A stretch of DNA of 37,213 bases from a virus, in IMG/VR virus record IMGVR_UViG_3300038566_000025, positions 1 to 37,213 of that record. The stretch is one strand, 5' to 3'. Under the pieces are notes generated by a model that saw nothing but the letters and a program-made list of their open reading frames with translations, did not search any database and was not told where the DNA came from. Position 1 is the first letter of the stretch. Each line of letters opens with the position of its first letter. The translations under genes and the position numbers were made by a program. Positions 14,459 through 37,213 of the stretch are shown in pieces.

Positions 14459-16089
14459 TATTCACTCGCTTGTCGTTGAGCCTTAATCAAGTTGTCAGCA
14501 GTTACAGGTATTCCATTATCACGCAAGAATTTACTCAACACTCTTACGTTCTCAGGTGGTATGTCTGTGACATTTTGTTCTACATCTGGTGCTAAGAAAT
14601 CAACACCGAATGCACTACGCTCAATAGTAACCCCTCTTGTTAAATCTGACAACACATCAGTAAATTCTTGGGAATTCAACTGTCCACCTTTCTGCTGCTC
14701 ACGGAATTTAACTTCACCGTCAAGCAGGTCATAAAAAGCATCAGCTTGTTTACGCTTATCATCGTTCCACTTGTTCTTCTTACCAAGTATCTGTTCAACA
14801 GCAGCAGTAGTCTGAGAACTACGTGTACGACCTATCTGATGATCAATCTTGTCAGCAGATGAACCTGTACCACCTGCACTTTTAACAGCACTCACCAGAG
14901 ATTTACGTTCAGCAGGTGCAAGCTGGTGGAAGTGTTCATTAGGGTTAACTTTAGCAAGTTCAGCTTTAGGTAATGTCATCAATTCAGAATAAACATTCCA
15001 ATCGGTGATCACTGCTTTACCTTCTTCAATACTGCGTTTCTGTTTAGCGGTCAGACGTTCCCAACCTTCAGGATCTTCAGCTTGATAAGTTTCAGCACTT
15101 CCACCGTTGATAATGTGAGATTCAGCAGCTTCATACGCTTCCGTCTGTGCTTCATTCTCAGCTTTCTTCTTCAACTCAAACTGACGCATTGCTTCAGTCA
15201 TTGTTTTCTTACGAAGTTCAGGATCTTCAATTTTATTTACTTCCTGACGAATATCTTCACGATCATCATAAGTATCAACCAGTTTAGTACCGGTGAGAAT
15301 CGCTTGTTGAGAATCAGCCTGAATTTTCTCTGCTTTTTGTTTAGCTGCAATATCTTTTTCAAGTTTCAGCTTATCAGGTCCTTCTAATCTATCACCATGT
15401 TTGTCCAACATCTGTTGACCTTCAGCAGCACTATTACCTGTGGCTGCTGTGATAGCTGCTTTAGCAAAAGATGAGTCATAAGTCTGCAACCGTTCAGCAG
15501 TTGCTTCAGGACCAATACCTTCAAGTTCAGCAGCATCAATCACCGCTTGACGACCTAGTGCATTTTGCACCGCTAATTGATCAGGTTGATTCCAATACAA
15601 TGAAGCATTCTCAACGGTGTTCTCTACTTGTGATCGAATAGTGGCAACTTCCCACGCTTTCAACCCTTTAGCTGAGTGACGCGCAATATCTGCTTGACCA
15701 CGTGTAATATGAACATCTGCTGACTTATCAAACATTCGTTTAGCATTTTCATTCAGACCATCACCGTACTGCTGCTTTAGCTTTGCAAGTGCATCATTTG
15801 CAGCAGTAGCGTTATCAAAGGCATTCTTACCCTGTGTATTGAAGTAACCGTTTTCAGGATTAAAGAATAAATTGTTTTTGTCACGCTCAAATGCCACTAA
15901 TGCTTCTTCAGCAGATGTGGTATCAATACGCTGCTTAACTTCAACACCAGCTTGTGCTACTTGAGCAAGACCTTGAGCAGCTTGAATGTTTGAACGGAAT
16001 ACAGCATTACCTGCTGACGCATCCGCACGTGGTTGACTAACAACCTGAGTAAGTACCTGATTACCTTCATACTGTGCGACTTTAGGCAT
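14458..16089 (-). CDS. Internal virion protein, gp15-like
   Basis: A 543-residue, highly charged and mostly helical protein with alanine- and glutamine-rich segments (for example AAQGLAQVAQAGVEVKQRI near the start and long K/E-rich helices at 240-340). No enzyme motif or membrane segment is visible. It lies between the gp14-like and the giant gp16-like genes, overlapping each by one base (TAATG), which is the order of the T7 core proteins gp14-gp15-gp16. By position and composition it is the gp15 analogue, part of the ejected trans-envelope tube. Sequence resemblance to T7 gp15 itself cannot be judged by eye. Confidence 0.72.
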   Translation of the reverse strand: MPKVAQYEGNQVLTQVVSQPRADASAGNAVFRSNIQAAQGLAQVAQAGVEVKQRIDTTSAEEALVAFERDKNNLFFNPENGYFNTQGKNAFDNATAANDALAKLKQQYGDGLNENAKRMFDKSADVHITRGQADIARHSAKGLKAWEVATIRSQVENTVENASLYWNQPDQLAVQNALGRQAVIDAAELEGIGPEATAERLQTYDSSFAKAAITAATGNSAAEGQQMLDKHGDRLEGPDKLKLEKDIAAKQKAEKIQADSQQAILTGTKLVDTYDDREDIRQEVNKIEDPELRKKTMTEAMRQFELKKKAENEAQTEAYEAAESHIINGGSAETYQAEDPEGWERLTAKQKRSIEEGKAVITDWNVYSELMTLPKAELAKVNPNEHFHQLAPAERKSLVSAVKSAGGTGSSADKIDHQIGRTRSSQTTAAVEQILGKKNKWNDDKRKQADAFYDLLDGEVKFREQQKGGQLNSQEFTDVLSDLTRGVTIERSAFGVDFLAPDVEQNVTDIPPENVRVLSKFLRDNGIPVTADNLIKAQRQASE

Positions 16090-25935: not shown

Positions 25936-26151
25936 TTACTGTCCTAACAATGTCTTAGTTGCAGTCGCTGCACCGTCTTGTACACCACGTGAACCGGTGA
26001 GGATGGTACTTCGACCACCTGTACCAGTGGCTGCTGCACGACGACGACGATCACGGTCTTGCGCTGTTTCACTCGAACCCACATCTGGTGCACGAGGTGC
26101 TTCAGGTACAGCAGGTGGTGGGGGTGGTGCTGATGGTGAACCGCCACACAT
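25936..26151 (-). CDS. Small Gly/Pro-rich conserved phage protein
   Basis: A 71-residue protein, MCGGSPSAPPPPPAVPEAP at the start and RRAAATGTGGRSTILTGSRGV towards the end, finishing KTLLGQ. Proteins with this 'MCGG...PPPP...RRR...STILTG...LLGQ' plan recur between terminase and portal in podoviruses and siphoviruses. Their role is unknown. An ATG six bases upstream would leave no room for the ribosome site; AGGAG is seven bases before ATG 26151, and the family normally starts with MCGG. Confidence 0.8.
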   Translation of the reverse strand: MCGGSPSAPPPPPAVPEAPRAPDVGSSETAQDRDRRRRAAATGTGGRSTILTGSRGVQDGAATATKTLLGQ

Positions 26152-26185
26152 AAGCATTCTCCTATTGACATTTACAATTAATCAG

Positions 26186-26213
26186 ATAATAGCATAACAC
26201 GAATCAATGTCTA
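26186..26213 (-). promoter_or_regulatory. Possible sigma70-like promoter for the head genes
   Basis: On the minus strand TAGACA (26213-26208), a 16-base spacer and TATTAT (26191-26186) give two near-consensus hexamers. They lie between the large-terminase stop and the MCGG protein, in an AT-rich gap of about 60 bases. It could boost expression of portal and capsid genes. It lacks the dyad found in the early promoters. Confidence 0.4.
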
Positions 26214-27728
26214 TATGTACTCATCAGAGTCCATTGCACCTAACGGATTGTAATCACGTCGGTCTTGATTGCGAACATACGGGTTATGATCGAGATGTCC
26301 ACGTGGTACTTCACGCTTTGGTACTGGTTCAGCAAATGTCAGATATAACGCATCAGCCCAGTCAGGTGATACACCAAGTCGCTTCTTCATGTCCTTCTTA
26401 CGTTCAAGCACCAGTTGGTCTTTATCATTGTGTGCGAACTCTCGTGCTGTCAGTTCTACTTCAAGCTGTGGGTCATTAGGTATCGCACCACCATCTAATA
26501 TCCACTGACGACAACGTGAACCCATCTCAGCAGTGCGCGACTTGAAGTGCTTCACGTCAGCAGCATTGTCACCGAAACCAACATCAATGACATGGTAACC
26601 GAGTTGACGCAACCTATCAGCAACAGGTCCACCCATTGACCCTTTATCCATGAAGCTAACATCAGGTTTATGTCGATCAAGTATCATGGTAAGCAGTGAC
26701 ACGACTTTCATTGAATCACGTGACTTCTCACCTGGTATCTTATAAACCTTCTCAGACTTAGCATCTTTACCACGTCTGAACTGAATCATGCAGTTATCGT
26801 CACCACCACGTGCCATGTCAATACCACAGATCAACGGGTCATCACCAAGGTACGCACCTGAACCACGACGCATTGCATCATAAACTGCATCAGATGGTAT
26901 GAACTGCATATCACCACCTTTAGGGAACATACCCCGTACACGGACACGCACAAAGTCACTATCTTCACCGAAGTCATCAACCCATTGTTGGATCAATCGT
27001 TTGTTCGTCATCTTAGCTTTACGACTGTCAATCTGTCTGGTGATCCATCGGTGACTGTTCTTCCTGAAACACTCATAGAATGAACCATTGTTACGTGTAG
27101 GGTTACCGAAACAGATGTGCATAGGTTCACCATCGGTCAAACCACCTTTGGCAACTTCCCATATCTTTTCAGGGATAGCAGATGCTTCATCGAATATGTA
27201 GAAAGGTGTTGAATCAGCAGCATGAAGACCAGCGAAACCTTCTGATGCTTCTTCACGTGATGTCAGTGCATCAACCCGCCATGACTTAGGGTAAGCACGA
27301 TGCACCAGTGACATCGACGACATTTCAAACCAGTGGCTAGTGATACACATTGAATGCCATTTAGCTAACTCTGACATAGTTTTAGTCTTGAGCTGTTCTC
27401 CGGTGTTAGCTGTGACCACACCTTTACATTTAGGTCTGGTAGACATGATCCACATGATAATCATTGCAGTGAATGCTGATTTACCGATACCGTGACCTGA
27501 TGACACTGCAACTTGAATAGGGTCAACTGCATCAACACCGTTGAATCCACGTTCTGCAACTTCGTCACCGAGTGTTGTTAATAACTCTCGTTGCCATTCA
27601 TCAGGGTCATCGAAACCTTGCAACGGTGTACCAGGTTCACCCCACGGAAATGCAAACAGTACGAACCCAAGTGGGTCACTATAAAACTGACTTATCTCTT
27701 CTGCTAAATCTACATCAATCTGGCTCAT
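26211..27728 (-). CDS. terL: Terminase large subunit
   Basis: The 505-residue DNA-packaging motor. The N-terminal ATPase has Walker A SSGHGIGKS (76-84) and Walker B FYIFDE (176-181), followed by the coupling-type segment CFGNPTRNNGSFYE (206-219). The C-terminal RNase H-like nuclease shows CGIDMARGGDDN with Asp304, FMDKG with Asp361, and SPDWADALYLTF with Asp456/Asp459, the three acidic metal-binding sites. It hydrolyses ATP to move DNA through the portal and cuts the concatemer. Translation starts at ATG 27728, behind AAGGTGA and only 28 bases after a strong folded RNA element. Confidence 0.97.
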   Translation of the reverse strand: MSQIDVDLAEEISQFYSDPLGFVLFAFPWGEPGTPLQGFDDPDEWQRELLTTLGDEVAERGFNGVDAVDPIQVAVSSGHGIGKSAFTAMIIMWIMSTRPKCKGVVTANTGEQLKTKTMSELAKWHSMCITSHWFEMSSMSLVHRAYPKSWRVDALTSREEASEGFAGLHAADSTPFYIFDEASAIPEKIWEVAKGGLTDGEPMHICFGNPTRNNGSFYECFRKNSHRWITRQIDSRKAKMTNKRLIQQWVDDFGEDSDFVRVRVRGMFPKGGDMQFIPSDAVYDAMRRGSGAYLGDDPLICGIDMARGGDDNCMIQFRRGKDAKSEKVYKIPGEKSRDSMKVVSLLTMILDRHKPDVSFMDKGSMGGPVADRLRQLGYHVIDVGFGDNAADVKHFKSRTAEMGSRCRQWILDGGAIPNDPQLEVELTAREFAHNDKDQLVLERKKDMKKRLGVSPDWADALYLTFAEPVPKREVPRGHLDHNPYVRNQDRRDYNPLGAMDSDEYI

Positions 27729-27756
27729 TGGTCGTCACCTTCGTCACCGATAGTGG

Positions 27757-27825
27757 AAAGCTCACCACTGGTGCAATGAAGCAGGGTGACGGTCTGCTGT
27801 TGGCACGTTATCAGTGGTGAGCTTT
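27757..27825 (-). other. Strong inverted-repeat / structured RNA element between terS and terL
   Basis: AAAGCTCACCACTG (27757-27770) and CAGTGGTGAGCTTT (27812-27825) are a perfect 14-base inverted repeat around a 41-base centre. The centre folds further on the minus-strand RNA: GUGCcAA pairs with UUGCAC across a bulged C, and AGCAG with CUGCU around a nine-base loop. It fills most of the 106-base gap between the terminase genes. There is no U-tract after it, so an ordinary terminator is unlikely. Options are a translation or processing element for terL, a packaging recognition site, or a small RNA. Confidence 0.85.
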
Positions 27826-27834
27826 ATTATGCTA

Positions 27835-28341
27835 TCAGAAGAATGATGGTTCGTCATCTTCATCACGATCTGCAACACGTCTACGTGCAGCAGCTAACTT
27901 ATCAACTACATCAGCATCGGTGCTGACTTTAATCTTGTCAGCAGCAAACGCATCGACACGTTTATGCTTACCCACCATGCTGAGTGCAGTGTTGCTTGCT
28001 GTGATGTTACCCTGCTGACGTGCAATCATGTGGTTATCCACCATCTCATTGAGCAACCAGTCAGCGTCAATCATGTTCACTTCAAGACGTTGTTGAATGA
28101 TGTGTTCAATAGCGTCACTGATTTCCTGCTTCTCAAGTAGCTTGTAGCCGTGGTCAGGATAATACCCCGATGCTTCTGCTGCACGTCGCACTGCAAAGTC
28201 TTTCACATACTCCACCACGAAGTTAGCTTCTTTCGGTGGTAGCTTGATGATGTCTGCAATAGTAATTCTCTTCATATTTGAATCCGTCACAATACCTAAT
28301 TGATCACATAATAACTCAAACCTTGACAATTCACCAATCAT
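27835..28341 (-). CDS. terS: Terminase small subunit
   Basis: A 168-residue protein that recognises phage DNA and recruits the large subunit. Residues 30-85 fit the small-terminase DNA-binding part (PPKEANFVVEYVKDFAVRRAAEASGY ... AIEHIIQQR), and the following ADWLLNEMVDNHMIARQQGN and SMVGKHKRVDAF are typical of the Terminase_2 family. The C terminus is acidic and ends FF. The ATG at 28341 has a GGTGA site three bases away; an alternative start at Met23 would remove a non-conserved leader, so the exact start is uncertain. It is the first gene of the late operon. Confidence 0.9.
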   Translation of the reverse strand: MIGELSRFELLCDQLGIVTDSNMKRITIADIIKLPPKEANFVVEYVKDFAVRRAAEASGYYPDHGYKLLEKQEISDAIEHIIQQRLEVNMIDADWLLNEMVDNHMIARQQGNITASNTALSMVGKHKRVDAFAADKIKVSTDADVVDKLAAARRRVADRDEDDEPSFF

Positions 28342-28365
28342 CGTTCACCGGTTAATGTTTCACGG

Positions 28366-28381
28366 AAACTGTCGCTGAGAA
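28366..28381 (+). repeat. 16-base direct repeat, copy 1
   Basis: AAACTGTCGCTGAGAA, identical to 28709-28724 and in the same orientation 343 bases away. It is directly preceded by AATGTTTCACGG (28354-28365), a 12-mer that also recurs at 28777-28788. The two repeat families bracket the ATGACAC cluster. Confidence 0.9.
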
Positions 28382-28664
28382 CTACAATTTCACCGATGAC
28401 ACATTGACGTATGACACATCGTTAAATATCCATTCCTTACCGATTTACACCATTTCGATTTTATAACTCCTACTACTTAAAAAATGTGTCATTCTGTCAT
28501 AAAAGTAAAAAAAAAGAAGAGAAACCCAGTAACCACGGGGGCTACAGACGATGACACGTTTTTACCTGAATCTGTCATGAAACCGTCAATGTGTCATGGA
28601 TTCTGTAGCTACAAATCACCATTTCTACTGAAAGCACTGTAAACCGCCATTTTCAGCAACATTG

Positions 28665-28679
28665 TGAGAACCATTCTCA
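28665..28679. promoter_or_regulatory. 15-base palindrome, possible operator
   Basis: TGAGAA-CCA-TTCTCA is a perfect dyad with a three-base centre. The half-site TGAGAA also ends both 16-base direct repeats (28376-28381 and 28719-28724), so one protein could contact all three places. Confidence 0.5.
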
Positions 28680-28708
28680 TTTATGACACGTTTGTGACAG
28701 ATTGCTTT

Positions 28709-28724
28709 AAACTGTCGCTGAGAA
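28709..28724 (+). repeat. 16-base direct repeat, copy 2
   Basis: Second copy of AAACTGTCGCTGAGAA. It lies on the far side of the ATGACAC cluster, just before the terminator of the early leftward unit. Confidence 0.9.
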
Positions 28725-28736
28725 AGTGCGTCCCAC

Positions 28737-28768
28737 AGAAACAAAGAAACCGCCCGAAGGCGGTCACT
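28737..28768 (-). terminator. Rho-independent terminator of the last early unit
   Basis: Minus strand: ACCGCC-TTCG-GGCGGT (28764-28749), a perfect six-pair stem with the stable UUCG loop, followed by TTCTTTGTTTCTG. It lies 25 bases after the stop of the 36-residue gene and separates the early leftward genes from the non-coding region and late operon. Confidence 0.88.
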
Positions 28769-28789
28769 TAATCAACAATGTTTCACGGG

Positions 28790-28900
28790 TTATATCCACA
28801 CTTTCCACGTCCCTTTATTCCATATACACCGTTTCACTGTTACCGACTTGGTGAACGCCTCACGCAGAGCTTCACCCAGGTTCACTGATTCAATTAACAT
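28790..28900 (-). CDS. 36-residue small protein, unknown
   Basis: A short frame from ATG 28900 to TAA at 28790, giving MLIESVNLGEALREAFTKSV followed by a basic, tryptophan-rich end (VKRCIWNKGTWKVWI). Support: GAGGTG lies four bases before the ATG, the start overlaps the end of the zinc-ribbon gene by seven bases in the style of this genome, and a strong terminator follows at once. The composition (amphipathic helix, then basic aromatic tail) would suit a small binding or inhibitory protein, but nothing identifies it. Confidence 0.6.
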   Translation of the reverse strand: MLIESVNLGEALREAFTKSVTVKRCIWNKGTWKVWI

Positions 28901-29142
28901 GTGACACCTCTTATCTCATCCACTGTTAAACGAGTACAATCACCGCAACGACTATCCGGTGCAAGCCATTCAGTAGTTTTGTCGCATTGGTAGCACGTCA
29001 ATGAAGGTAGACCTTCATCATACCCACGTTCATAGTCGAACGCCCACTGTGACCCTTCAGGGTACGGGTTCTTGTGCTCACCGTTTCGACCATCGGTTTG
29101 ACCTACTTTATAGGCACGAGTTATCTTCTTGCGTTTAGTCAT
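28894..29142 (-). CDS. Small zinc-ribbon protein with RMF-like N terminus
   Basis: An 82-residue protein in two parts. Residues 8-44 (RAYKVGQTDGRNGEHKNPYPEG ... WAFDYERGYDEG) follow the glycine-spaced pattern of ribosome modulation factor and related short phage domains. Residues 50-69 have CYQC and CGDC separated by 13 residues, a probable zinc ribbon. It may bind RNA, ribosomes or a host protein, but the function is unknown. AAGGAG is six bases before the ATG. It lies between the methyltransferase-like gene and the 36-residue gene in one early unit. Confidence 0.8.
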   Translation of the reverse strand: MTKRKKITRAYKVGQTDGRNGEHKNPYPEGSQWAFDYERGYDEGLPSLTCYQCDKTTEWLAPDSRCGDCTRLTVDEIRGVTC

Positions 29143-29152
29143 CGTCTGCTCC

Positions 29153-29866
29153 TTATAACCAGCAAGGTGTTTCTTGATTAGATTTAAATCGATTGTGCCA
29201 TAGCTCAGTACACAGTGCAGGTGTTGGGAAGCTACGACCCATCTTCATTGATAAAGTGTTACCTTGAGTCACGTGTGCTGCGACTCCTGCTGCGCTCAGG
29301 TTGATGTAACATAGGTCTGCTGTCATGTGACTAAGTTCGACACAGTGAGCATACAGATCAACCTTCAGCTCAGTTGCACGATGATGTGCAGCAATGACCA
29401 TCCCACCGCCACCAGCAGCCGGTTCACTGAGTGTAATGTAACCTTTATCATTGACCGATGATTCGCTGATACACATCTGAGCATTGAGCTGAGCATTGAG
29501 CTGACAGACTGAGTATGGTGAGAAGAATTGACCTAACTCCTTACGACCCATACTGAGTTCCATCAGTGCTTCACCAAGGAAGTCACCGTGTTGCATCTGG
29601 TGAGCCATCGACACGAATGCAAGCATCTGAGCAAGATGTGACTGCTCATCACTGTTGTACTTCTTGATGGTCTTCAGGTAGGTGTCTTCTGATTCTTGCG
29701 AGTAGAACGGTGTGAGTTGGTTGACGATAGTGATACGACCCAGTTCAGCAAAGTCTCTGATCACGTCGTGCAAGCTGCGAACATGTGACAGGTCTTCACA
29801 TCGTTTAATGAATGCTTTCTTAACTGCGTCGTATGTAGATAAATCTTCTTGTTTCTTTTTAGCCAT
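29153..29866 (-). CDS. N6-adenine DNA methyltransferase-like protein without visible NPPY motif
   Basis: A 237-residue protein related to the HsdM/N6 methylase class. GQFFSPYSVCQLNAQL (112-127) is the usual segment before the AdoMet site, SEPAAGGGGMVIAA (147-160) is motif I, and CVELSHMTADLCYINLSAAG (175-194) and VTQGNTL (199-205) fit motifs II and III. The catalytic (D/N)PP(Y/F) motif expected soon after is not visible: the chain continues MKMGRSFPTPALCTELWHNRFK and stops. It may be a compact variant, a partner subunit or an inactive decoy. A 12-base tandem duplication at 29478-29504 doubles LNAQ beside the SPY segment. It is the first gene after its own promoter. Confidence 0.82.
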   Translation of the reverse strand: MAKKKQEDLSTYDAVKKAFIKRCEDLSHVRSLHDVIRDFAELGRITIVNQLTPFYSQESEDTYLKTIKKYNSDEQSHLAQMLAFVSMAHQMQHGDFLGEALMELSMGRKELGQFFSPYSVCQLNAQLNAQMCISESSVNDKGYITLSEPAAGGGGMVIAAHHRATELKVDLYAHCVELSHMTADLCYINLSAAGVAAHVTQGNTLSMKMGRSFPTPALCTELWHNRFKSNQETPCWL

Positions 29867-29896
29867 AGATTATTCACCTTTATGAGTAGTGATTAA

Positions 29897-29925
29897 ATCT
29901 TAGTGTAACTTTGTTCCACAGTCAA
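29897..29925 (-). promoter_or_regulatory. Early promoter with 17-base operator dyad
   Basis: Minus strand TTGACT (29925-29920), spacer of exactly 17 bases, TAAGAT (29902-29897). The whole spacer is the dyad GTGGAACAAAGTTACAC (29919-29903), whose reverse complement differs by one base from the copy at the 30650 promoter. It drives the methyltransferase-like gene, 31 bases upstream of its ATG. Confidence 0.82.
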
Positions 29926-29936
29926 GCATCAGACAC

Positions 29937-29962
29937 AAAAAAGCCGGTTGTGACACCGGCTT
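29937..29962 (-). terminator. Rho-independent terminator after the MazG-like gene
   Basis: Minus strand AAGCCGGT-GTCACA-ACCGGCTT (29962-29941), a perfect eight-pair stem ending in a run of six T. It lies 21 bases after the MazG-like stop and just before the next promoter, so it cleanly separates two early units. Confidence 0.93.
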
Positions 29963-29983
29963 CATAGTTACACTGCTCATCGG

Positions 29984-30343
29984 TTACTGCTTATCAGCTC
30001 GATCCTGTGCCTGTTGGTCACTGTACTGGTGACCTTTGTAGCGTTTACCCAGTTTGCTGATGTTCGCTTCAATGGTTTCTTCACGAGTGATACCGAGTCC
30101 CTGACGCAACCCTTCCATGTAGAATTCCAGATCACCGAGTTCTTCAATGACATTCTCACGGTCAATGTCTTTACGGTACATCACTGCTTTCTTCACAGCG
30201 TCGAGCAGTTCACCAGCTTCACCACTGATACCCACCGACATGTGCAGCAGATGAGCATCTTCACCTGTCATCTCAGCAGCAATCACTTCACCAGGTTTAG
30301 CCAGTTGCGCCACCATGTCACTATGATTAATGTTGTGTTTCAT
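29984..30343 (-). CDS. MazG-like nucleoside triphosphate pyrophosphohydrolase
   Basis: A 119-residue all-alpha NTP pyrophosphatase of the MazG/dUTPase superfamily. The metal-binding pattern is visible as GEAGELLDAVKKA followed by VIEELGDLEFYMEGL, the E-x-x-E ... E-x-x-D arrangement. It should hydrolyse a (d)NTP or related nucleotide to the monophosphate, cleaning the pool or lowering an alarm nucleotide. A GTG 18 bases further upstream overlaps the previous gene; ATG 30343 has AAGGTGA at the right distance and is preferred. It is coupled to the hypothetical gene before it and ends at a strong terminator. Confidence 0.9.
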   Translation of the reverse strand: MKHNINHSDMVAQLAKPGEVIAAEMTGEDAHLLHMSVGISGEAGELLDAVKKAVMYRKDIDRENVIEELGDLEFYMEGLRQGLGITREETIEANISKLGKRYKGHQYSDQQAQDRADKQ

Positions 30344-30602
30344 CTTCGTCACCTTCTTCACTAAGTTTAATTGTCACGCCTTCAACCAGCACTGGCATAA
30401 CCAGTCCTAGACTTTCAACGTGTTCTTTTGCCATTTGATATTCAGCCAAGAACTGCACCGCCCATCCATCTTTGTTTTCAGCAATGAATGAAGCCACCAG
30501 CTTATGACCACTTTCTTCAAATTTATCCAACCACAGTTCTGACATCTCAATGAACGTCTGATTGACCAGTTCCTGTGTGATTTCTTTCTTTTCTTCAGAC
30601 AT
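30327..30602 (-). CDS. Hypothetical early protein
   Basis: A 91-residue, acidic protein with no recognised family. The middle (LWLDKFEESGHKLVASFIAENKDGWAVQFLAEYQMAKEHVE) looks helical, and the last ten residues are almost all acidic or polar. No cysteine pairs, membrane segment or signal. GAGGTGA precedes the ATG, and the gene overlaps the MazG-like gene by 17 bases. It is the first gene after the promoter at 30650, so it may be a host-takeover or pool-control partner, but this is only position. Confidence 0.75.
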   Translation of the reverse strand: MSEEKKEITQELVNQTFIEMSELWLDKFEESGHKLVASFIAENKDGWAVQFLAEYQMAKEHVESLGLVMPVLVEGVTIKLSEEGDEDETQH

Positions 30603-30649
30603 ACGTCACCTCAATTAAATAAGTCAGCAGCTTTCACCACTGACTCAAT

Positions 30650-30677
30650 ATTATAGTGGAACAATGTTACACTGCAA
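30650..30677 (-). promoter_or_regulatory. Early promoter with 17-base operator dyad
   Basis: Minus strand TTGCAG (30677-30672), 16-base spacer, perfect TATAAT (30655-30650). The dyad GTGTAACATTGTTCCAC (30672-30656) fills the spacer, as in the 29897 promoter but in the opposite orientation. It lies two bases after the reductase stop and drives the hypothetical and MazG-like genes. Confidence 0.85.
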
Positions 30678-30678
30678 G

Positions 30679-32565
30679 TTAAATCTCACATGAACCAGCA
30701 GAACATGCTAACGTCTGCATTGCTTCAGTGTTGTCATCGACTTCATTCAACTCAGTCCAGTCCACGTTAGGCATAGGGTTCGCTTCAACCCATGCGTCGA
30801 ACTCATCAGCAGTCAGGTCTTGATACGGTGCTTGCATGTACGTGTGATCGGTGTGAGGTAGGAAGCTAATACCAGACACTTCATCAAAGTGCTTGTACAC
30901 CCATGCACCCACATCAACCCATTCTTCATCACGCACAGTAATGGTCACCGATGGTTTATGCTCACACCACTCACGCTGATACGTCAGCCACAGTTCAAGT
31001 GCTTCCATTGCAGACACTTCACTGCGAGTCACAGCAGACTCAGGTGCTTTGATAGCAAAGCTAACCACAGCAGTGCTGTCAGGTCGCATCTGGTCATCTT
31101 CAGTATGGAAACCACGTTCTTTCATGAAGTCGTACAATGGGTCTTTCTTATCGACACGCACAGTACGAATGTAATGATGGTTATGACGTGCATGAATACC
31201 TGAAGCAGTGTTGCATAGTTGCGATACCGTACCTGAAGGTTTGACACAGGTGATAGCGGTTGACGGGTTCACACCGAGTGCTTCAGCCCATTTAGCATTC
31301 ACCTCACGAGCATGGTCACGCATCATGTGCAGGATCTTTGTCAACTCAGCTTGACCTTTAGCACCGGACATCAGTTCATTGTCCATGATACCGGTGAGAC
31401 TTACACCGAGTAATGCTTCTTCAGCAGTGTTCTGTTCCCATGACTCAGATACGAAATTGAAGTCAGTCAGTGTGGCTTGTAGCGTACCCAGGATGGTTGC
31501 AATCTCAACTTTATCAAGCAGGGTTTCAAGTGTGTCATCTTCACGGATAATCACTTCAGACAGGTTACACAGTTGCTTGTCACGCAGGATGATTTCACTG
31601 CAAGGGTTACAACCGTATGACAGGTCTTCAGGACGACGACCCCATTTAGCTGCTTGCTTACCTGCTGCTTCACGGTTGAAGATGCCACGTTCACCTGACT
31701 TCGACTTAACCAGTGACAACCATTCTTCCATGAAGATTTCAGCAGATGGTTTCTCAGTGTATGCAACTGAGTTGTTAGCAAGACCACGTTGAGGGTTATC
31801 AGTCCACCATTGACCGGCTTTAGCGTCACGCATACGCTGATCGGACAGGTTGCTGAGACTAATGAGTGCACTGCGACGGACACCACCGACAACCACAATC
31901 TCACCGATCATGCACATCAGGTCATGTACTTCAATACTGGTGAGCTTACGACCACGAGCTTTGTTGAAGGTTTCAATGGTGAAGTTGAACAGACGACTCA
32001 ACGGTTCAGGACCAGACGCACGACCACCGAACACCTTCAGACGCTGACCAGCAGGACGTACACGACTGTAATCAATGTCGGGTATATCACCGTTCCATAG
32101 ATGACTGAGTAATGCGTGATAGGCTTTAGCCCAACCTTTCTTACTGTCACCGACTACCACGGTGCTGTCAGTCTTTTCCAGTTTTTCAGGTATAGTAGGA
32201 AGACGTGTGACTTCTTGACGTTCACATGAGAACCCGACACCAGTGCCACACATGAGAATGTACAGTGCTTCAGCGAATGAACGCTTAGTGTTGACTGCCA
32301 GATATGAACAGTTGAACCCTGCAAGGTTCTCACGCTGCAACGCTGGACCTGCTGTCATCAGTGCACGCATAGAAGGCATGACTTTCAGTTCGGTGATGAA
32401 CTCTTTCACCTTACCGTTTAGCACACCATGGTGAGCACCGAGGGTCTTAGTGTCGAAGAAATCAATGTAACGCTGCACTGTCTCTTCCCAGGTTTCCCGA
32501 CGACCTAAGTCATCACGCCAGCGTGAGTAACGGGAAATGTGAATATATTGCTGATATAAATCCAT
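30679..32565 (-). CDS. Ribonucleotide reductase, class II (adenosylcobalamin-dependent)
   Basis: Converts ribonucleotides to deoxyribonucleotides for phage DNA synthesis. It resembles the monomeric reductase of Lactobacillus leichmannii. Cys86 in FNCSYLA and Cys333 are the redox pair, Cys322 in NPCSEIIL is the radical cysteine with Glu324 beside it, and Cys621/Cys626 in ACSAGSCEI at the tail re-reduce the site. PSGTVSQLCNTASGIH near 460 is also typical. At 628 residues it is about 110 shorter than the 739-residue L. leichmannii enzyme, so some regulatory insert may be missing. Class II needs no oxygen or second subunit but needs B12 from the host. It stands in the early operon near ThyX. Confidence 0.92.
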   Translation of the reverse strand: MDLYQQYIHISRYSRWRDDLGRRETWEETVQRYIDFFDTKTLGAHHGVLNGKVKEFITELKVMPSMRALMTAGPALQRENLAGFNCSYLAVNTKRSFAEALYILMCGTGVGFSCERQEVTRLPTIPEKLEKTDSTVVVGDSKKGWAKAYHALLSHLWNGDIPDIDYSRVRPAGQRLKVFGGRASGPEPLSRLFNFTIETFNKARGRKLTSIEVHDLMCMIGEIVVVGGVRRSALISLSNLSDQRMRDAKAGQWWTDNPQRGLANNSVAYTEKPSAEIFMEEWLSLVKSKSGERGIFNREAAGKQAAKWGRRPEDLSYGCNPCSEIILRDKQLCNLSEVIIREDDTLETLLDKVEIATILGTLQATLTDFNFVSESWEQNTAEEALLGVSLTGIMDNELMSGAKGQAELTKILHMMRDHAREVNAKWAEALGVNPSTAITCVKPSGTVSQLCNTASGIHARHNHHYIRTVRVDKKDPLYDFMKERGFHTEDDQMRPDSTAVVSFAIKAPESAVTRSEVSAMEALELWLTYQREWCEHKPSVTITVRDEEWVDVGAWVYKHFDEVSGISFLPHTDHTYMQAPYQDLTADEFDAWVEANPMPNVDWTELNEVDDNTEAMQTLACSAGSCEI

Positions 32566-32569
32566 AAGG

Positions 32570-32737
32570 TTATTTCTCTTGGTCTTTGATTAAATTTTTA
32601 ATTTCCTGCACAGTATCTTTCAACTCTACAAGTTCCTTCAATGCGTCCAGCAACCCTTCACGTATATCACCGTGATACAACTCAGGGTTATCTGTTTCAA
32701 CAGCATTGATTAAGCGGTAAAGGTCACTGGTTTGCAT
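32570..32737 (-). CDS. Small hypothetical protein, 55 residues
   Basis: A short helical protein: QTSDLYRLINAVETDNPELY followed by LLDALKELVELKDTVQEIKNLIKDQEK, an evident amphipathic or coiled-coil helix. A longer frame starting at 32803 reads back through the ThyX gene and has a shadow-like leader. ATG 32737, one base after the ThyX stop and behind GGGTGG, is the sensible start. It sits between ThyX and the reductase and could help either enzyme, but there is no direct evidence. Confidence 0.65.
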   Translation of the reverse strand: MQTSDLYRLINAVETDNPELYHGDIREGLLDALKELVELKDTVQEIKNLIKDQEK

Positions 32738-32738
32738 G

Positions 32739-33428
32739 TTACCACCCTTGTTCTTCGTAACGCTTCTTGAATGCAGCAACAGCGACTGGTGCAACAGGTT
32801 CAATCAGCTTCAACATTGCTTCAGCGTAGACTTTAATCTCGTACTGAGCATGAGGGTGTAAGCGTTCAGATAGGAATCGGAACAGGTTATGCAGGTTCAT
32901 GGTAGCAAACATGTGTGAATACGTTGATACCGGTAAGACTGAGCGTGCCAGCTCACGAGGACAACCGTCAGCAATCATCTTCTTGTAGGTGCGAAACGCT
33001 TCATAGTTCACGTCCATCATCTTCTGACGGAACTTCTCAGCTTGTGGATGCACTTCATCAGTACGCATCTGCTTGTTATCAGTTGACTGCGTGGTGATCT
33101 GAGAAGGTTCAGGAATGTAGAACTCTTCAGGTAGCTCACGGTAACGTGCAGACAGTTCATTGTAAGACTGAGTACGGTGACGATGCCACTGACGGAACAC
33201 GAAGATCGGTGCTTTCACATCGAAGGTTAATGTCACAGCTTCAAACGGTGTGTTGTGACCGTTGTTGTAAAGATAGTTGATCAGACGTGCGTCACTACCT
33301 TTGTCCTCACCAGCACGCCACTCAGCGTCATAGCTCACACGAGCATTCCGCACGATAGATAAGTCATTACCCATCGAGTCAACCAGGCGTACAAAGCCGT
33401 GGTCTAATACGTTAATTTTATTTTCCAT
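32739..33428 (-). CDS. thyX: FAD-dependent thymidylate synthase
   Basis: Makes dTMP from dUMP with methylene-tetrahydrofolate, using FAD and NADPH. The ThyX motif RHRxxSxNExSxRY is intact as RHRTQSYNELSARY (83-96). Other family parts are HNTPFEAVTLTFDVKAPIFVFRQW before it and PVSTYSHMFATMNLHNLFRFLSERL after it, the latter holding substrate-binding residues. Length of 229 is usual. GTG nine bases upstream is possible, but AGGTGA fits ATG 33428. It overlaps the small membrane protein by 11 bases and, with the reductase and MazG-like protein, forms the nucleotide module. Confidence 0.97.
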   Translation of the reverse strand: MENKINVLDHGFVRLVDSMGNDLSIVRNARVSYDAEWRAGEDKGSDARLINYLYNNGHNTPFEAVTLTFDVKAPIFVFRQWHRHRTQSYNELSARYRELPEEFYIPEPSQITTQSTDNKQMRTDEVHPQAEKFRQKMMDVNYEAFRTYKKMIADGCPRELARSVLPVSTYSHMFATMNLHNLFRFLSERLHPHAQYEIKVYAEAMLKLIEPVAPVAVAAFKKRYEEQGW

Positions 33429-33678
33429 TGTTGTCACCTTTAAGTAATTGAGTTAGTACACTGTGCACCAGTCTATGTAAACCAGCGTTGAAGAATCTAC
33501 GCCAGAAGTAGGTACGCAGGACACTAACAGTTGTAAAAATACATGTTGCTGTGAAAGCTGAATTCTTCAACTCTTCAGAAGGGATAATGACCCAGGCATA
33601 CACAGCCCACGCCAGCAAGAACCCTGATAAATAGTTGAAGAACACCTCAATCATTGATTCAATCTTTGTCTGGTTCAT
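33418..33678 (-). CDS. Small membrane protein, DUF7220-like
   Basis: An 86-residue protein with two hydrophobic segments, about residues 13-33 (FFNYLSGFLLAWAVYAWVII) and 43-62. The frame Q-T-K-I-E-S-M-I-E-V ... N-x-x-x-G at the start and FTTVSVLRTYFWRRFFN in the second half match a small phage and plasmid membrane family I know as DUF7220, of unknown role. GGAG is seven bases before ATG 33678, which is preferred to the upstream codon at 33696. It overlaps DUF3310 by 20 bases and ThyX by 11. Confidence 0.8.
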   Translation of the reverse strand: MNQTKIESMIEVFFNYLSGFLLAWAVYAWVIIPSEELKNSAFTATCIFTTVSVLRTYFWRRFFNAGLHRLVHSVLTQLLKGDNNGK

Positions 33679-33886
33679 TGGCTTTCTCCGTTTCAAGCTG
33701 GATCAACAACTCAATGTAGTGTTTAGCTTTTTCAAGATCAGCCAGACCATTCTTCTTACGCCACCGAGATACATACTTAATGACGTTACCTTCACAGAAA
33801 CCTATATCGTTTGCGTGAATGTACTGGATAGGTTGAATCGGTGTCTTATAGTGGTCACCGTCCACTTGTTTATCTAATGCGCTCAT
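33659..33886 (-). CDS. DUF3310 family protein
   Basis: A 75-residue protein with the full DUF3310 signature: KQVDGDHYKTPIQPIQYI, then FCEGNVIKYVSRWRKKNG and DLEKAKHYIELLIQLE. The family is common in phage early regions, sometimes fused to nucleotide-metabolism enzymes, and has been linked to SaV-like nucleotide kinases, but its reaction is not established. AGGTGACGACA stands before ATG 33886. It follows the primase-helicase by ten bases. Confidence 0.92.
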   Translation of the reverse strand: MSALDKQVDGDHYKTPIQPIQYIHANDIGFCEGNVIKYVSRWRKKNGLADLEKAKHYIELLIQLETEKANEPDKD

Positions 33887-33896
33887 TGTCGTCACC

Positions 33897-36554
33897 TTAA
33901 TTAACTACTTGTAAACCAACTTCACCACGTGCTTCTTTCATCTGACGCTCATACTCACGGTACAGGTCAGGGGAAGTCATAGCAGCGTACTTCTCTTCAT
34001 TACGGATAACCCACAGACGTGCTTTACTACAGCGCACCTGCTGGTAACTACCGATTTCTTTCAACAGCATCCCGATCTTCTTATCGGTGAAGAACTTCGG
34101 ATCGGTCATCATATCAGCAGGTGTCATTGCACCAGCTCGAAGTGTTTCACCCATGTCATTAGTCGTGAGAACATCACAACGGAATGCACCATGTTTCTTG
34201 TCAATGAATGCTTCAAGTGTCTGCTGCATTGGTGACTTCGATGACTCTTTAATCTCACGCAGGAACTCAGTCATAGGTGGTGCTTCATTAGGATTGAAGT
34301 TAGACAAGTCAACAGTGTGCATCAGATGGTATACAACAGCTTTCCATCCACCAGCTTTCATCCACGTCCATCTGTCTTCCCAGTATTGAAGCCACTCAGG
34401 TTTCATGTTGTCCTGCTTGTCACGTGGGTTCAGGTCTGACCACATAGCATAGAAACGACGTGACGGACCATTCAAGCGTAAAGGCATAACTGAGTTCGTG
34501 GTCATAGTAGCATTGAGAATGTTGCGTACTTTAATGCGCTTGATACCTTTCTGGTTCACGCTCAACTGCTCTGGTGGTGCAGCAGCCAGTGGTTTGAGTT
34601 TGTTACTGACAGCAAGTGCTTCACGACGGTCACCCAACTCTGCTTCATTGATGTGCAGATACTTGGTTGACAGTACATAGTCATTGAACCCATCCAGTAA
34701 TTCTTCACCACTGATCACCGTGTGGTTCTCACCCATTGCTTTGATGAGTGGGTACAATAGGAAGTCTTTACCACAACCTTCACCGCTACCGAGTAGCAGC
34801 ATGTGGTTTATCTTGCGGTCAGGGTGACGCAGTGTGAATGCCATCCATTTTTCAATGTGGTCACGGTGTTCACCCCACCCTAATGCGTCGAAGTGCATAG
34901 TCCACCGACTTGCATCACCTGGTGCACCGAATGACTGAGTTGCATCACTCCACGTGTTAGCGTAACGACAACCATCTTCAATGAATATACGTGGTTGTTT
35001 TGGTGCGTAGTCCAGACGGTCAACTTTTTGCACACGACCTTCTTGCAGTGCAATCTTACGTGCTTCAGCATCTTCGTGACTGAATGAGTTTTGGAATGCT
35101 TCAGTGCTGAAGAAGATGCGTGACTCCCAGTCATAGAACTGGTTTAACTCTTTAACAAATACCACGTTGTCATAGAATTCAGCAGCACTGACTTTCTCAC
35201 CATACCATGTCTTACGCAGATCATTGATGATGTCTTTGAAGTCAGCTTTTGACCAGCGCATGATGTCAACCACCACGTCATGCCAGTGCTTCTGTTCCAT
35301 CTTCGGTAGGTCATCAGTGTGCTTCAGCACCTTAGCAGCAAGCTCACGCTGCTCACTTGTACCAGGTAACTGACGACGCAGGTTGTCACAAAGAAGTTGA
35401 ATTGCATCTGGTGTTACGGTTTCAACTGATCCAGTGTTGGCTGGTTGAGGTACAGGTGTTGAAAGGAAGCATGGTTCATCTGCTCCTTGGTTTGCTGTAG
35501 CAGTTCCAGCATGTCCCACCGAGGTTGTTGCTTGAACATTGGTCGCTGGTTGTGCAGCAGGTACGCTGGACATGAAAGAGATTTCAGGTGCAACTGTGTC
35601 AAGCTCTCGCATAATTTGCCAGTTTTTAAGTTTCGAGCTGAACCCTGTTGAGTGATTTTCGATGTGTCGTAAAAGGTCTGCACCGGTACGACCTTGACAT
35701 GCTCCGTGGTGACATTTAAAACCGATAGTCCCGTCTTCATTAGTGAAGACTGCGCTTCCTGAATCATCTTGACTGGTGTGTTCATGTACCCACGGACAGG
35801 TAATATCGAATCGTCCATCACTGCGAATCTCCTTAATGTGAATTATTTCAGGAATGTTGATCAACGGGTGGTCACTGACATCAGCAGCACCATCAACACG
35901 TTGCTCACGTCGCACTGCATCAAGGTCAACTGCAAACGGTGCAGCTAATTCTTCTAAGGTTACACGGTTGAACGGTTGCCAGTGCAACATGCGACACTGG
36001 AACGGTTGACCATTCACCAGCTTGTTTGCTTTATTATTGATACCTTCAGGTAAACGCAGGTAACGGGTTACACCCTTCATACCAGGGTCACGACCATCAG
36101 GTGCAAGACCATTAGCCACCAAACCATCAAGCAGGTTCTCAACACGACCACGATCTTCACACGGTGTATCAAGAATGTAGCCCCATTGCTCAGAACCGAT
36201 TGATGATTCTAATATCCATGCAGGTTGAGGTAACTTGTTCACCTCATCCATTGACAGTTTTTCTTTTACGTCATCGAGTACAATACACGGTGTCTTTCTG
36301 AACAGTGCTTTACGACGACGTGCTTGACCTTGATCGTCAGCATAGAAGAGACTGATGGTGAAATACTGGTTAGTGTTAGGTTGTAACTGGTAACGAGAAT
36401 AGTAGTCACCTTTCCATGCGATTAAGTGCTTGTCTTTCGGAATATTAACTGGATCGTATGGGAAGTCTGTGACGTGACACCACGGTGCGTCTTCACCGAA
36501 AACAGCGTCAATGAATTCTTTATTACTGATTTTTAGGGGTAATTGTCCTGTCAT
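33897..36554 (-). CDS. Primase-helicase (AEP-like primase with SF3/D5-type helicase)
   Basis: An 885-residue replication protein. The N-terminal third resembles archaeo-eukaryotic-type primases of mobile elements: CIVLDDVKEKL (90-100) supplies acidic residues, SSIGSEQWGYIL (117-128) and GVTRYLRLPEGINNK (161-175) fit later motifs. A zinc-binding stretch CPWVHEH ... FKCHHGACQG lies at 253-288. A proline/threonine/alanine-rich linker (about 325-375) leads to the ATPase with Walker A LLLGSGEGCGKDF near 586-598 and an acidic ILHINEAELGDRREAL-like Walker B region near 625-640 (as YLHINEAELGDRREAL). It should open the origin, unwind DNA and lay primers. A TTG at 36599 is possible, but ATG 36554 behind AAGGT is preferred. 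Confidence 0.88.
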   Translation of the reverse strand: MTGQLPLKISNKEFIDAVFGEDAPWCHVTDFPYDPVNIPKDKHLIAWKGDYYSRYQLQPNTNQYFTISLFYADDQGQARRRKALFRKTPCIVLDDVKEKLSMDEVNKLPQPAWILESSIGSEQWGYILDTPCEDRGRVENLLDGLVANGLAPDGRDPGMKGVTRYLRLPEGINNKANKLVNGQPFQCRMLHWQPFNRVTLEELAAPFAVDLDAVRREQRVDGAADVSDHPLINIPEIIHIKEIRSDGRFDITCPWVHEHTSQDDSGSAVFTNEDGTIGFKCHHGACQGRTGADLLRHIENHSTGFSSKLKNWQIMRELDTVAPEISFMSSVPAAQPATNVQATTSVGHAGTATANQGADEPCFLSTPVPQPANTGSVETVTPDAIQLLCDNLRRQLPGTSEQRELAAKVLKHTDDLPKMEQKHWHDVVVDIMRWSKADFKDIINDLRKTWYGEKVSAAEFYDNVVFVKELNQFYDWESRIFFSTEAFQNSFSHEDAEARKIALQEGRVQKVDRLDYAPKQPRIFIEDGCRYANTWSDATQSFGAPGDASRWTMHFDALGWGEHRDHIEKWMAFTLRHPDRKINHMLLLGSGEGCGKDFLLYPLIKAMGENHTVISGEELLDGFNDYVLSTKYLHINEAELGDRREALAVSNKLKPLAAAPPEQLSVNQKGIKRIKVRNILNATMTTNSVMPLRLNGPSRRFYAMWSDLNPRDKQDNMKPEWLQYWEDRWTWMKAGGWKAVVYHLMHTVDLSNFNPNEAPPMTEFLREIKESSKSPMQQTLEAFIDKKHGAFRCDVLTTNDMGETLRAGAMTPADMMTDPKFFTDKKIGMLLKEIGSYQQVRCSKARLWVIRNEEKYAAMTSPDLYREYERQMKEARGEVGLQVVN

Positions 36555-36681
36555 TCGCTCTGACCTTAATTTAATGTCTGACCTTTGTGATTGCGGCAAC
36601 CTGGTCAGAGTAGGCTGTCTCCATGATGATCGGTCACGAATAAGCCGCTTTTACATTTAAGCATTTATGTTGTTGGAAATC

Positions 36682-36710
36682 AATTTACAGTCATTGTGTA
36701 ACTTTGTCAA
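36682..36710 (-). promoter_or_regulatory. Leftward early promoter for the primase-helicase operon
   Basis: Minus strand TTGACA (36710-36705), 17-base spacer, TAAATT (36687-36682). The GTTACAC half of the early dyad lies at 36702-36696 and the other half is degenerate (GTTTGAC at 36712-36706), overlapping the -35. The leader to ATG 36554 is about 120 bases. Confidence 0.7.
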
Positions 36711-36719
36711 ACTTTTTAG

Positions 36720-36749
36720 TTGACACGTTCCATACTGTTCCACTATGAT
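36720..36749 (+). promoter_or_regulatory. Rightward early promoter
   Basis: TTGACA (36720-36725), 18-base spacer, TATGAT (36744-36749). The half-site GTTCCAC lies at 36737-36743, directly before the -10 as in the leftward promoters, with a near copy GTTCCAT at 36727-36733. It drives the ribbon-helix-helix-like gene from a start 38 bases downstream. Confidence 0.78.
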
Positions 36750-36787
36750 TATCCACGGTGACATAACGAACTACGAGGAAACTTCAC

Positions 36788-37018
36788 ATGTCTGCTGAAG
36801 AATTAGTGGAAGATAAAGAAGTTTTAGACGGTGACTTGCGAATGCGTATAGCACAGTCTGAACTCGACATCTTTCAAAAGAAGTCTAAACGTGTGACAGG
36901 TAAGCCGTACCAGCTACTGTTACGTGAAATGATAACCGCCTTCAATGACGGACGTTTACGCATCGTCCCAACTGAAGAACAAAAATCTCAACTTGGAGAA
37001 CTTTACAATGTCGATTGA
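36788..37018 (+). CDS. Ribbon-helix-helix-like small protein, possible regulator
   Basis: A 76-residue protein. Residues 17-55 have the shape of a ribbon-helix-helix domain: a strand [10 protein letters not shown], a helix [11 protein letters not shown], a turn TGKPY and a second helix [14 protein letters not shown]. Such proteins bind DNA dyads as dimers through the strand. The alternating R-R residues in LRMRI would face the DNA. GAGG lies nine bases before the ATG. As the first gene behind a promoter carrying the shared half-site, it is a good candidate for the protein that binds the early operators, but no known family was recognised and a non-DNA role is possible. Confidence 0.72.
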
Positions 37019-37213
37019 AAACAACCTTAAACGTATCGCTGATGCACTTGAAGCCTTAGTTGCACAGAAGACTGTGACCGCTGAACAAGTAGCCGAAGCG
37101 GTGAGTCCTGCTCCTGCTGCTCCTGCTGCTCCTGCTGCTCCTGCTGCTCCTGCTGCTCCTGCTGCTCCTGCTGCTCCTGCTGCTCCTGCTGCTCCTGATC
37201 GTGACTGGGAAAC
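37008..37213 (+). CDS. Early protein with proline-alanine repeat tract (3' end outside window)
   Basis: Starts at ATG 37008 behind GGAG, overlapping the previous gene by 11 bases, and runs off the window. The first 33 residues ([20 protein letters not shown], then [12 protein letters not shown]) are a clear amphipathic helix with a start pattern common in small phage proteins. A PAAP tract of nine repeats follows, then DRDWE. The tract is probably a flexible linker between the helix and a domain not seen here. Function unknown. Confidence 0.75.
37107..37196 (+). repeat. In-frame 9-base tandem repeat (CCTGCTGCT)
   Basis: After CCTGCT come nine perfect copies of CCTGCTGCT (37113-37193) and a last CCT, coding for Pro-Ala-Ala repeats. 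Copies are identical at the third codon position too, so the array is young or kept uniform by slippage. Confidence 0.95.

Follow-up and report, generated by a model that had tools for sequence, protein, structure and literature searches.

A conserved 17-bp operator in core promoters of a group of marine Vibrio phages and its probable ribbon-helix-helix autoregulator

Several promoters of the viral DNA analyzed here (the window, 37,213 nt) carry the same 17-bp dyad, which raises the question of whether one protein reads all of these sites and which gene would encode it. The initial annotation had noticed the dyad at two leftward promoters and had proposed a single regulator of all early transcription. 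The shared dyad holds and is stronger than first put, with two full further copies in the window and conservation in related phages.

Operator sites and promoters in the window

The sequence GTGnAACnnnGTTnCAC is present twice in the window, both times at leftward promoters, P1 (operator GTGTAACATTGTTCCAC, 30656–30672, minus strand) and P2 (operator GTGGAACAAAGTTACAC, 29903–29919, minus strand). Read on the same strand, the two 17-mers differ by one base, as annotated, and they are the only exact dyad matches in the window. Allowing for 3 mismatches or fewer gave 41 matches vs. 24.6 (SD 4.6) in shuffled sequences, and none of 100 shuffles reached 41.

Both operators had been placed exactly between the −35 and −10 elements. 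This is the case for P2 (29897–29925, minus strand), where the 17-mer fills the 17-bp gap between TTGACT (29920–29925) and TAAGAT (29897–29902). At P1 (30650–30678, minus strand) the operator, located directly after a reductase gene, does abut TATAAT (30650–30655), but the window has a weak −35 element, either CTTGCA at a 17-bp distance or TTGCAG overlapping the dyad by one base; 7 aligned relatives have TTGAAC with 17 bp. P1 lies upstream of a 91-aa open reading frame (30327–30602) and a MazG-like gene (29984–30361), and P2 upstream of a 237-aa methyltransferase-like gene (29153–29866). An intrinsic-terminator-like hairpin (29940–29963, minus strand) is found directly upstream of P2, which looks like a terminator-promoter-operator cassette ahead of exchangeable accessory genes.

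The divergent region holds two full but weaker copies of the dyad, with 31 bp from centre to centre. The copy at 36696–36712 (GTGTAACTTTGTCAAAC; GTTTGACAAAGTTACAC on the minus strand), correctly annotated as degenerate, is a full 17-mer that covers the −35 element of the leftward primase promoter P_L (36682–36710, minus strand; TTGACA 36705–36710, 17 bp, TAAATT 36682–36687). A half-site, GTTCCAC at 36737–36743, had also been noted directly before the −10 element of the rightward promoter P_R (36720–36749, plus strand; TTGACA, 18 bp, TATGAT). It belongs to a whole 17-mer (GTTCCATACTGTTCCAC, 36727–36743, plus strand) inside the 18-bp spacer, with 2 mismatches to the relaxed dyad GTGNNACNNNGTNNCAC. 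The operator unit is better read as GTnnnACAnTGTnnnAC, that is, two GTnnnAC boxes 10 bp apart. The first gene after P_R (36788–37018, plus strand) encodes a 76-aa protein, the probable autoregulator.

A promoter scan of positions 26000–37213 returned 16 promoter-like sites vs. 17.2 in shuffled sequences, so that by their hexamers alone the promoters are not above chance. P_R (11/12) and P_L (10/12) ranked on top and P2 scored 9; P1 was missing from the list of this region.

Conservation of the operator and its linkage to the 76-aa gene

Because these very sites had served to derive the search pattern, the real test is in the relatives. A search for GTGNNACNNNGTNNCAC in the window and its relatives bore the dyad out, with 20 exact sites spread over 13 of 28 related records (window included) and none for the reversed control; 17 of the 20 sit within correctly spaced promoters. 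With up to 2 mismatches, 36 promoter-embedded sites were detected vs. 1, 2, 0, 2 and 0 for five control patterns. A broader consensus, to which some of the scanned records had themselves contributed, gave 41 sites vs. 1 for its control; these were located in 20 of 29 records, and the other 9 records had no consensus site. The records are kin to one another, so the sites are not independent.

In the P2 alignment 15 of 17 operator columns are invariant, compared to 1 of 34 in the upstream and 0 of 54 in the downstream flank; this alignment comprises the 7 of 12 records with the 17-bp layout, and 10 of the invariant columns are fixed by the search pattern. At P_R, within the promoter of the putative regulator itself, the site is conserved by sequence among 36 distinct spacers: T, G and T are kept in 33, 35 and 35, and A and C in 35 and 32. 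The left half is degenerate (G 20/36, T 26/36). The MZH0603 and L016 spacers carry 4 mismatches, and L019 and L025 also deviate. The promoter script listed no promoter at 3 of 38 loci, two of which are present in the P_R spacer comparison. Sites of the P1/P2 type were not found in MZH0603, G017 and G020, or in the fragments G009, G011 and G013. Several relatives have a further operator site in the rightward operon, in a region absent from the window. Matches inside a DUF2800 gene (W01 1462, W02 33830, W04 33140) are probably coding and were set aside. In this phage group the operator thus forms a genuine sequence family, which lies in or over the core promoters P_R and P_L and those of two downstream leftward operons, P1 and P2.

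When the P_L/P_R DNA pattern was compared with 2.9 million viral contigs, 30 matched, and 29 of these encode a homologue of the 36788–37018 product downstream; the remaining contig stops 46 bases past the promoter. The homologues all reach E 7e-16 or better; many of them are themselves part of the profile used for scoring. Of the matched contigs 26 were already known, and three of the 4 new ones encode the homologue. The P2 pattern matched 6 contigs, and the sole new record among them also encodes the 76-aa homologue. The protein is present in six phage records, three of which are isolates of 1.021; searches of bacterial genomes and of plasmids returned no relative. In this group of marine Vibrio phages the dyad is nearly always accompanied by the 76-aa gene. 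Of the initial proposal, a single regulator on an operator common to several promoters is supported, and the 36788–37018 product is the likely regulator. That it would govern all early transcription is a wider claim, and several records lack P1/P2-type sites.

Nature of the 76-aa protein

The initial annotation saw no repressor of a known family, and sequence libraries indeed name none: searches of Pfam, PHROGs, NCBIfam and PDB sequences gave no family for the 76-aa protein. Its predicted structure and its sequence pattern, however, point to a probable ribbon-helix-helix (RHH) protein. The model built from 35 sequences (pLDDT 78) has helices at residues 23–37 and 41–53, with no strand drawn in the monomer. 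Foldseek gave six matches with weak scores (E 3.3–7.1), the first four of them to chains of RelB and DinJ, and Vibrio cholerae DinJ superimposes with Z 5.4, weak in absolute terms, and an rmsd of 2.1 over 49 residues. An earlier model from 15 sequences was poorer (pLDDT 70.7; three Foldseek matches at E 7.2 or worse, among them the RHH protein Reg576 at Z 3.0).

RHH sequence profiles stayed below cut-off in the 35 members (RHH_1 in 1, best E 0.04; NikA-like in 2, best E 0.033), so we name a probable RHH fold and do not place the protein in an RHH sequence family. The Arc family (PF03869) was matched by none of the 35 at E ≤ 1, while P22 Arc itself scored 5.4e-31. No helix-turn-helix (HTH) profile came near cut-off (lone chance-level matches, HTH_AraC E 0.16 and HTH_OrfB_IS605 E 0.18). 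Comparisons by hhalign with Arc, Mnt, RelB and DinJ were not significant, and among 52 single P22 and E. coli proteins the RHH proteins were not separated from the others. The best hhalign match, P22 Orf80, was discarded: it rests on 16 tail residues, and Orf80 belongs to DUF2560.

We also rejected the idea that strand residue 18 dictates the operator. Consensus sites are present with R, H (G039) or N (G027) at this position, and G017 (D), G020 (A) and G038 (H, with K at 20) are without them. The next open reading frame (36945 onward) is an Ala-Pro repeat with no convincing family, and no toxin gene was recognised adjoining 36788–37018. Our literature searches found no report of an early repressor of the RHH type from lytic or Vibrio phages, and no paper on PS25B.1 or MZH0603.

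Proposed mechanism and comparison with known systems

The overall layout of P1, P2 and P_R is similar, and the motif might serve promoter strength or stem from promoter duplication, with no protein devoted to it. We hold this to be very improbable: the 17-mer lies over the −35 element at P_L, and in relatives, near the DNA polymerase gene, its consensus follows a TTGACT with the register shifted by 3 bp, whereas promoter duplication would keep the register. Control by a host transcription factor, with a host operator copied by the phages for host control of their early genes, appears quite unlikely. Host-factor sites in phage promoters are known generally and the promoters here are of the host sigma-70 type, but the sites remain attached to a phage gene. 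Moreover, one exact operator version, GTGGAACAATGTTACAC, sought in one genome per species (84,980 species), occurred in 6 contigs, none of them titled Vibrio.

The RHH protein might instead bind as an activator or polymerase-remodelling factor. MerR-type activators also use sites in the −35/−10 gap, and the −35 element of P1 is weak in the window, but MerR-type spacers are long (19–20 bp). Near-consensus hexamers at 17–18 bp, as found here, should need no activator, so these promoters should fire unaided; the P_L operator, in addition, covers the −35 element itself. Activation is thus unlikely.

We favor the reading, with a probability of about 0.8, that the 76-aa product of 36788–37018, probably of RHH type, is a phage repressor that controls its own gene and has the dyad as its operator. 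Early in infection, these sigma-70-type promoters would be used by host RNA polymerase. With rising levels of the RHH protein, two dimers would bind side by side on each operator, one helical turn apart, and occupy the seat of the polymerase, which would shut the promoter, its own P_R included. The P_R and P_L operators, 30–31 bp apart, may be bound jointly, and through P2 this early pulse would extend to exchangeable accessory genes. Binding, repression and timing by the 76-aa protein are what we infer from the sequences.

In P22 immI, Arc is, as proposed here for the 76-aa protein, a small phage repressor with an operator in its own promoter (14798–14818 within 14793–14821) and a divergent promoter adjoining (P22 record annotation), and a strand-helix-helix fold is likely common to both. 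Unlike Arc, to which no sequence relationship is detectable, the Vibrio phage protein would have an operator that serves several promoters and is shorter (17 bp vs. 21 bp in the P22 annotation). P22 has int, whereas Pfam Phage_integrase was absent from all 11 Vibrio phage-group records searched. The RHH autorepressors RelB and DinJ are the closest folds found. RelB reads TGT-containing hexads with dimers on one DNA face and uses a strand arginine (PMC2812701); the sites here also contain TGT, and at least 90% of the 35 members retain R20. In that same account, relO spans about −10 to +17, whereas the present operator is in the spacer; the 76-aa gene, in addition, has no recognised adjoining toxin and its product no RelB profile match. 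In archaeal viruses a shared early regulatory sequence has been used to find anti-defence genes, and there, as with the anti-CRISPR-associated (Aca) autoregulators and as proposed here, one small protein of the virus is considered to dampen a number of early promoters, those of accessory genes included (PMC11065993). Ten Aca families are known, all described as having an HTH (PMC9410906), whereas no HTH profile came near its cut-off for the 76-aa protein; the present system, moreover, is one of Vibrio phages with sigma-70-type promoters.

Tentatively, and at somewhat less than even odds, the protein could represent an unrecognised RHH-like family, so far found in this phage group only, that governs an early regulon of several promoters in phages that appear to be lytic, with P2 as a plug-in cassette for swapping unrelated accessory, possibly counter-defence, genes. 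The operator could then act as bait for such genes.

The 76-aa gene, previously unrecognised, probably encodes a product that sits on this switch and turns down the early genes, its own included. Operator and regulator are both small, and the pair lends itself to reporter tests in E. coli. If the reading is true, it would provide (i) a regulator, its cognate operator and a regulon for marine phages with mostly "hypothetical" genes; (ii) an example of an Arc-like repressor from phages in which no tyrosine integrase is detectable; and (iii) a sequence handle to locate early accessory genes.

Operator sites and their conservation

The window, an entire virus record of 37,213 bases, derives from a bacteriophage related to the Vibrio phages PS25B.1, 1.185.O, 1.021.A and MZH0603, and 23 related IMG/VR loci were found with its primase-like protein. 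Because the named relatives measure 43-44 kb and their rightward operon runs on past the point where the window ends, several kilobases are probably missing from it.

Two leftward promoters, P2 and P1, carry the 17-base operator on the minus strand at 29903-29919 and 30656-30672, respectively, as the initial annotation had claimed. Its statement that both sites lie exactly between -35 and -10 holds for P2 (TTGACT and TAAGAT), but the P1 operator abuts TATAAT and has a poor -35 in the window, unlike the TTGAAC of all seven aligned relatives. In the divergent region, the 17-mer at 36696-36712 (minus strand, leftward primase promoter P_L) was present as described, but the supposed half-site at 36737-36743 is part of a whole 17-mer spanning 36727-36743 (plus strand, rightward promoter P_R); 31 bp separate the two centres. 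Scanning 26000-37213 for promoter hexamers alone did no better than shuffles (16 vs. 17.2 promoter-like sites); P_R and P_L topped the list and P1 was missed.

Since the operator pattern had been drawn from the window sites themselves, chance was tested on the relatives. The dyad is conserved there: GTGNNACNNNGTNNCAC matched 20 times, in 13 of the 28 records (window included), whereas its reversed control never matched. When only 17-mers within well-spaced promoters were counted (746,155 bases, up to two mismatches), 36 were observed, whereas the five control patterns gave 1, 2, 0, 2 and 0. Twelve records have a P2-like site; the seven that share the 17-bp layout were aligned. Of their operator columns, 15 of 17 never vary (10 of them fixed by the search), compared with 1 of 34 upstream and 0 of 54 downstream. 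Conservation is less striking at P1 (eight records; 12 of 17 operator columns), because its upstream flank is conserved too (11 of 34 columns; downstream, 8 of 54).

We gathered 39 distinct divergent regions by GTCAAA(C/T), TTGAC(A/T), an 18-bp spacer and TAnnnT, with spacer letters left free, although four were fetched only via a pattern fixing TGT and AC. Among 36 distinct P_R spacers, T, G and T are retained in 33, 35 and 35, and A and C in 35 and 32; the mirror-image half is less well kept (G 20, T 26, A 28, C 23, A 25). In every one of the 39 regions, 30 or 31 bp separate the centre of the P_L operator from that of the P_R operator (search range 29-32). The common form, GTnnnACAnTGTnnnAC, can be read as a pair of GTnnnAC boxes set 10 bp apart. 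It occurs at 41 sites in 20 of 29 records (reversed control, 1; eight of the 29 also belong to the first 28) and at 32 sites in the first 28 (reversed control, 1); these counts are not independent of the form, which was derived from many of the same records. The form is absent from nine of the 29 (G016, G017, G020, G026, G031, G035, G036, G038 and G041), several of which are fragments. On the possibility that a host factor reads the sites, a single exact version, GTGGAACAATGTTACAC, was searched for in a collection in which each of 84,980 species is represented by one genome; it was found in six contigs, none titled Vibrio.

The 36788-37018 product

The gene at 36788-37018 is the first of the rightward operon, a position kept in relatives. 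It was linked to the operator by two DNA-pattern searches of 2.9 million viral contigs. The 29-base P2 promoter-operator pattern matched six contigs, and the only one not already known (L103) encodes the putative regulator protein. The P_L/P_R pattern, designed after such regions had been seen, matched 30 contigs, 26 of them already known from protein searches. The regulator gene lies within the 800 bases searched downstream in 29; the sequence of the remaining contig, L133, stops 46 bases past the promoter. Three of the four new contigs encode the regulator, the other being L133. None of the 30 lacked the gene where enough downstream sequence existed. The protein was not found in the bacterial genomes or plasmids searched, and among 50,697 phage records it occurs in six Vibrio phage records only.

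The initial annotation saw no repressor of a known family. This stands for sequence libraries (Pfam, PHROGs, NCBIfam and PDB sequence searches), which did not recognise the protein, but its sequence pattern and predicted structure suggest a probable ribbon-helix-helix (RHH) fold. The sequence has an alternating strand (LRMRI) and two helices with G-K-P-Y in between, and AlphaFold2 (35 sequences) placed helices at 23-37 and 41-53 (pLDDT 78). The first four of six Foldseek matches are chains of the RHH antitoxins RelB and DinJ; V. cholerae DinJ gave Z 5.4 and rmsd 2.1 over 49 residues, low scores that are possible by chance. Because these structural matches agree and the gene position fits, RHH is the best reading.

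Upstream of the primase in L023 (record G017) lies a diverged homologue (E 1.2e-8) with D at a strand residue where most have R, accompanying a divergent region and a record without the consensus operator. This single case is as expected if operator and protein change together.

Downstream genes and transcript leaders

Downstream of P_L are the primase-like gene and, further on, the reductase. In the window P1 is followed by a 91-aa ORF and then a MazG-like gene, annotated as dUTPase in three relatives. P2 leads to accessory genes: by mechanical calling, the first ORF with 45 aa or more in 12 records is a methyltransferase-like protein (5), a shared small ORF (2) or a protein to which nothing else in the set is related (5), and some later ORFs are common to several records. 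Visual inspection showed a terminator-like stretch ahead of the P2 promoter in 11 of the 12 (exception, G003). Several relatives have an extra operator site in the rightward operon, past the DNA polymerase gene; its register is shifted by 3 bp or its -10 is poor.

The primase transcript leader (36575-36650, minus strand) contains a conserved RNA-like element, GCGGCTTATC...GGAAACAGCC...GACCAGGTTGCCGC, a candidate regulatory RNA for which no Rfam family was found. With the window's own fold as structure (z-score -2.34), 96.3% of cells pair in an alignment of 10 phages chosen by eye, and none of 500 shuffles reached the covariation score; the three pairs changed on both sides are not outstanding (79 of 500 shuffles). 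Directly 3′ of the P1 -10 box, a hairpin followed by T-rich sequence (30620-30647, minus strand), whose pairing is kept in relatives with different letters (by eye), may be a leader hairpin or an attenuator. An Ala-Pro repeat tract (37104-37200) in the second rightward gene (36945 onward) varies in length and unit among relatives, and the "CRISPR spacers" annotated within a coding region of Vibrio phage 1.185.O (L002, 28101-28318) are possibly coding repeats.

A probable Arc-like arrangement

Beyond annotations and search results, we infer a mechanism in which the promoters, with hexamers near TTGACA and TATAAT at 17-18 bp, would need nothing beyond host RNA polymerase for their activity. Protein bound in the spacer, or covering the -35 at P_L, would block the polymerase. 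Since the RHH gene sits behind one of the sites, autoregulation at its own promoter would be expected. Pfam Phage_integrase, which covers tyrosine integrases but not serine recombinases, was found in none of 11 records and an HTH_3 domain in two, so that early shut-off appears likelier than lysogeny.

Literature searches (RHH early repressors in lytic or Vibrio phages; phages PS25B.1 and MZH0603) found no paper on the regulator. RelB is reported to recognise hexads that contain TGT, its dimers lying on one helix face (PMC2812701). The P22 record shows the layout proposed here, with the operator of the Arc repressor within the arc promoter; by layout and probable fold, the mechanism is probably Arc-like. 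The shared operator is confirmed as real; it is conserved among relatives and linked to a single gene.
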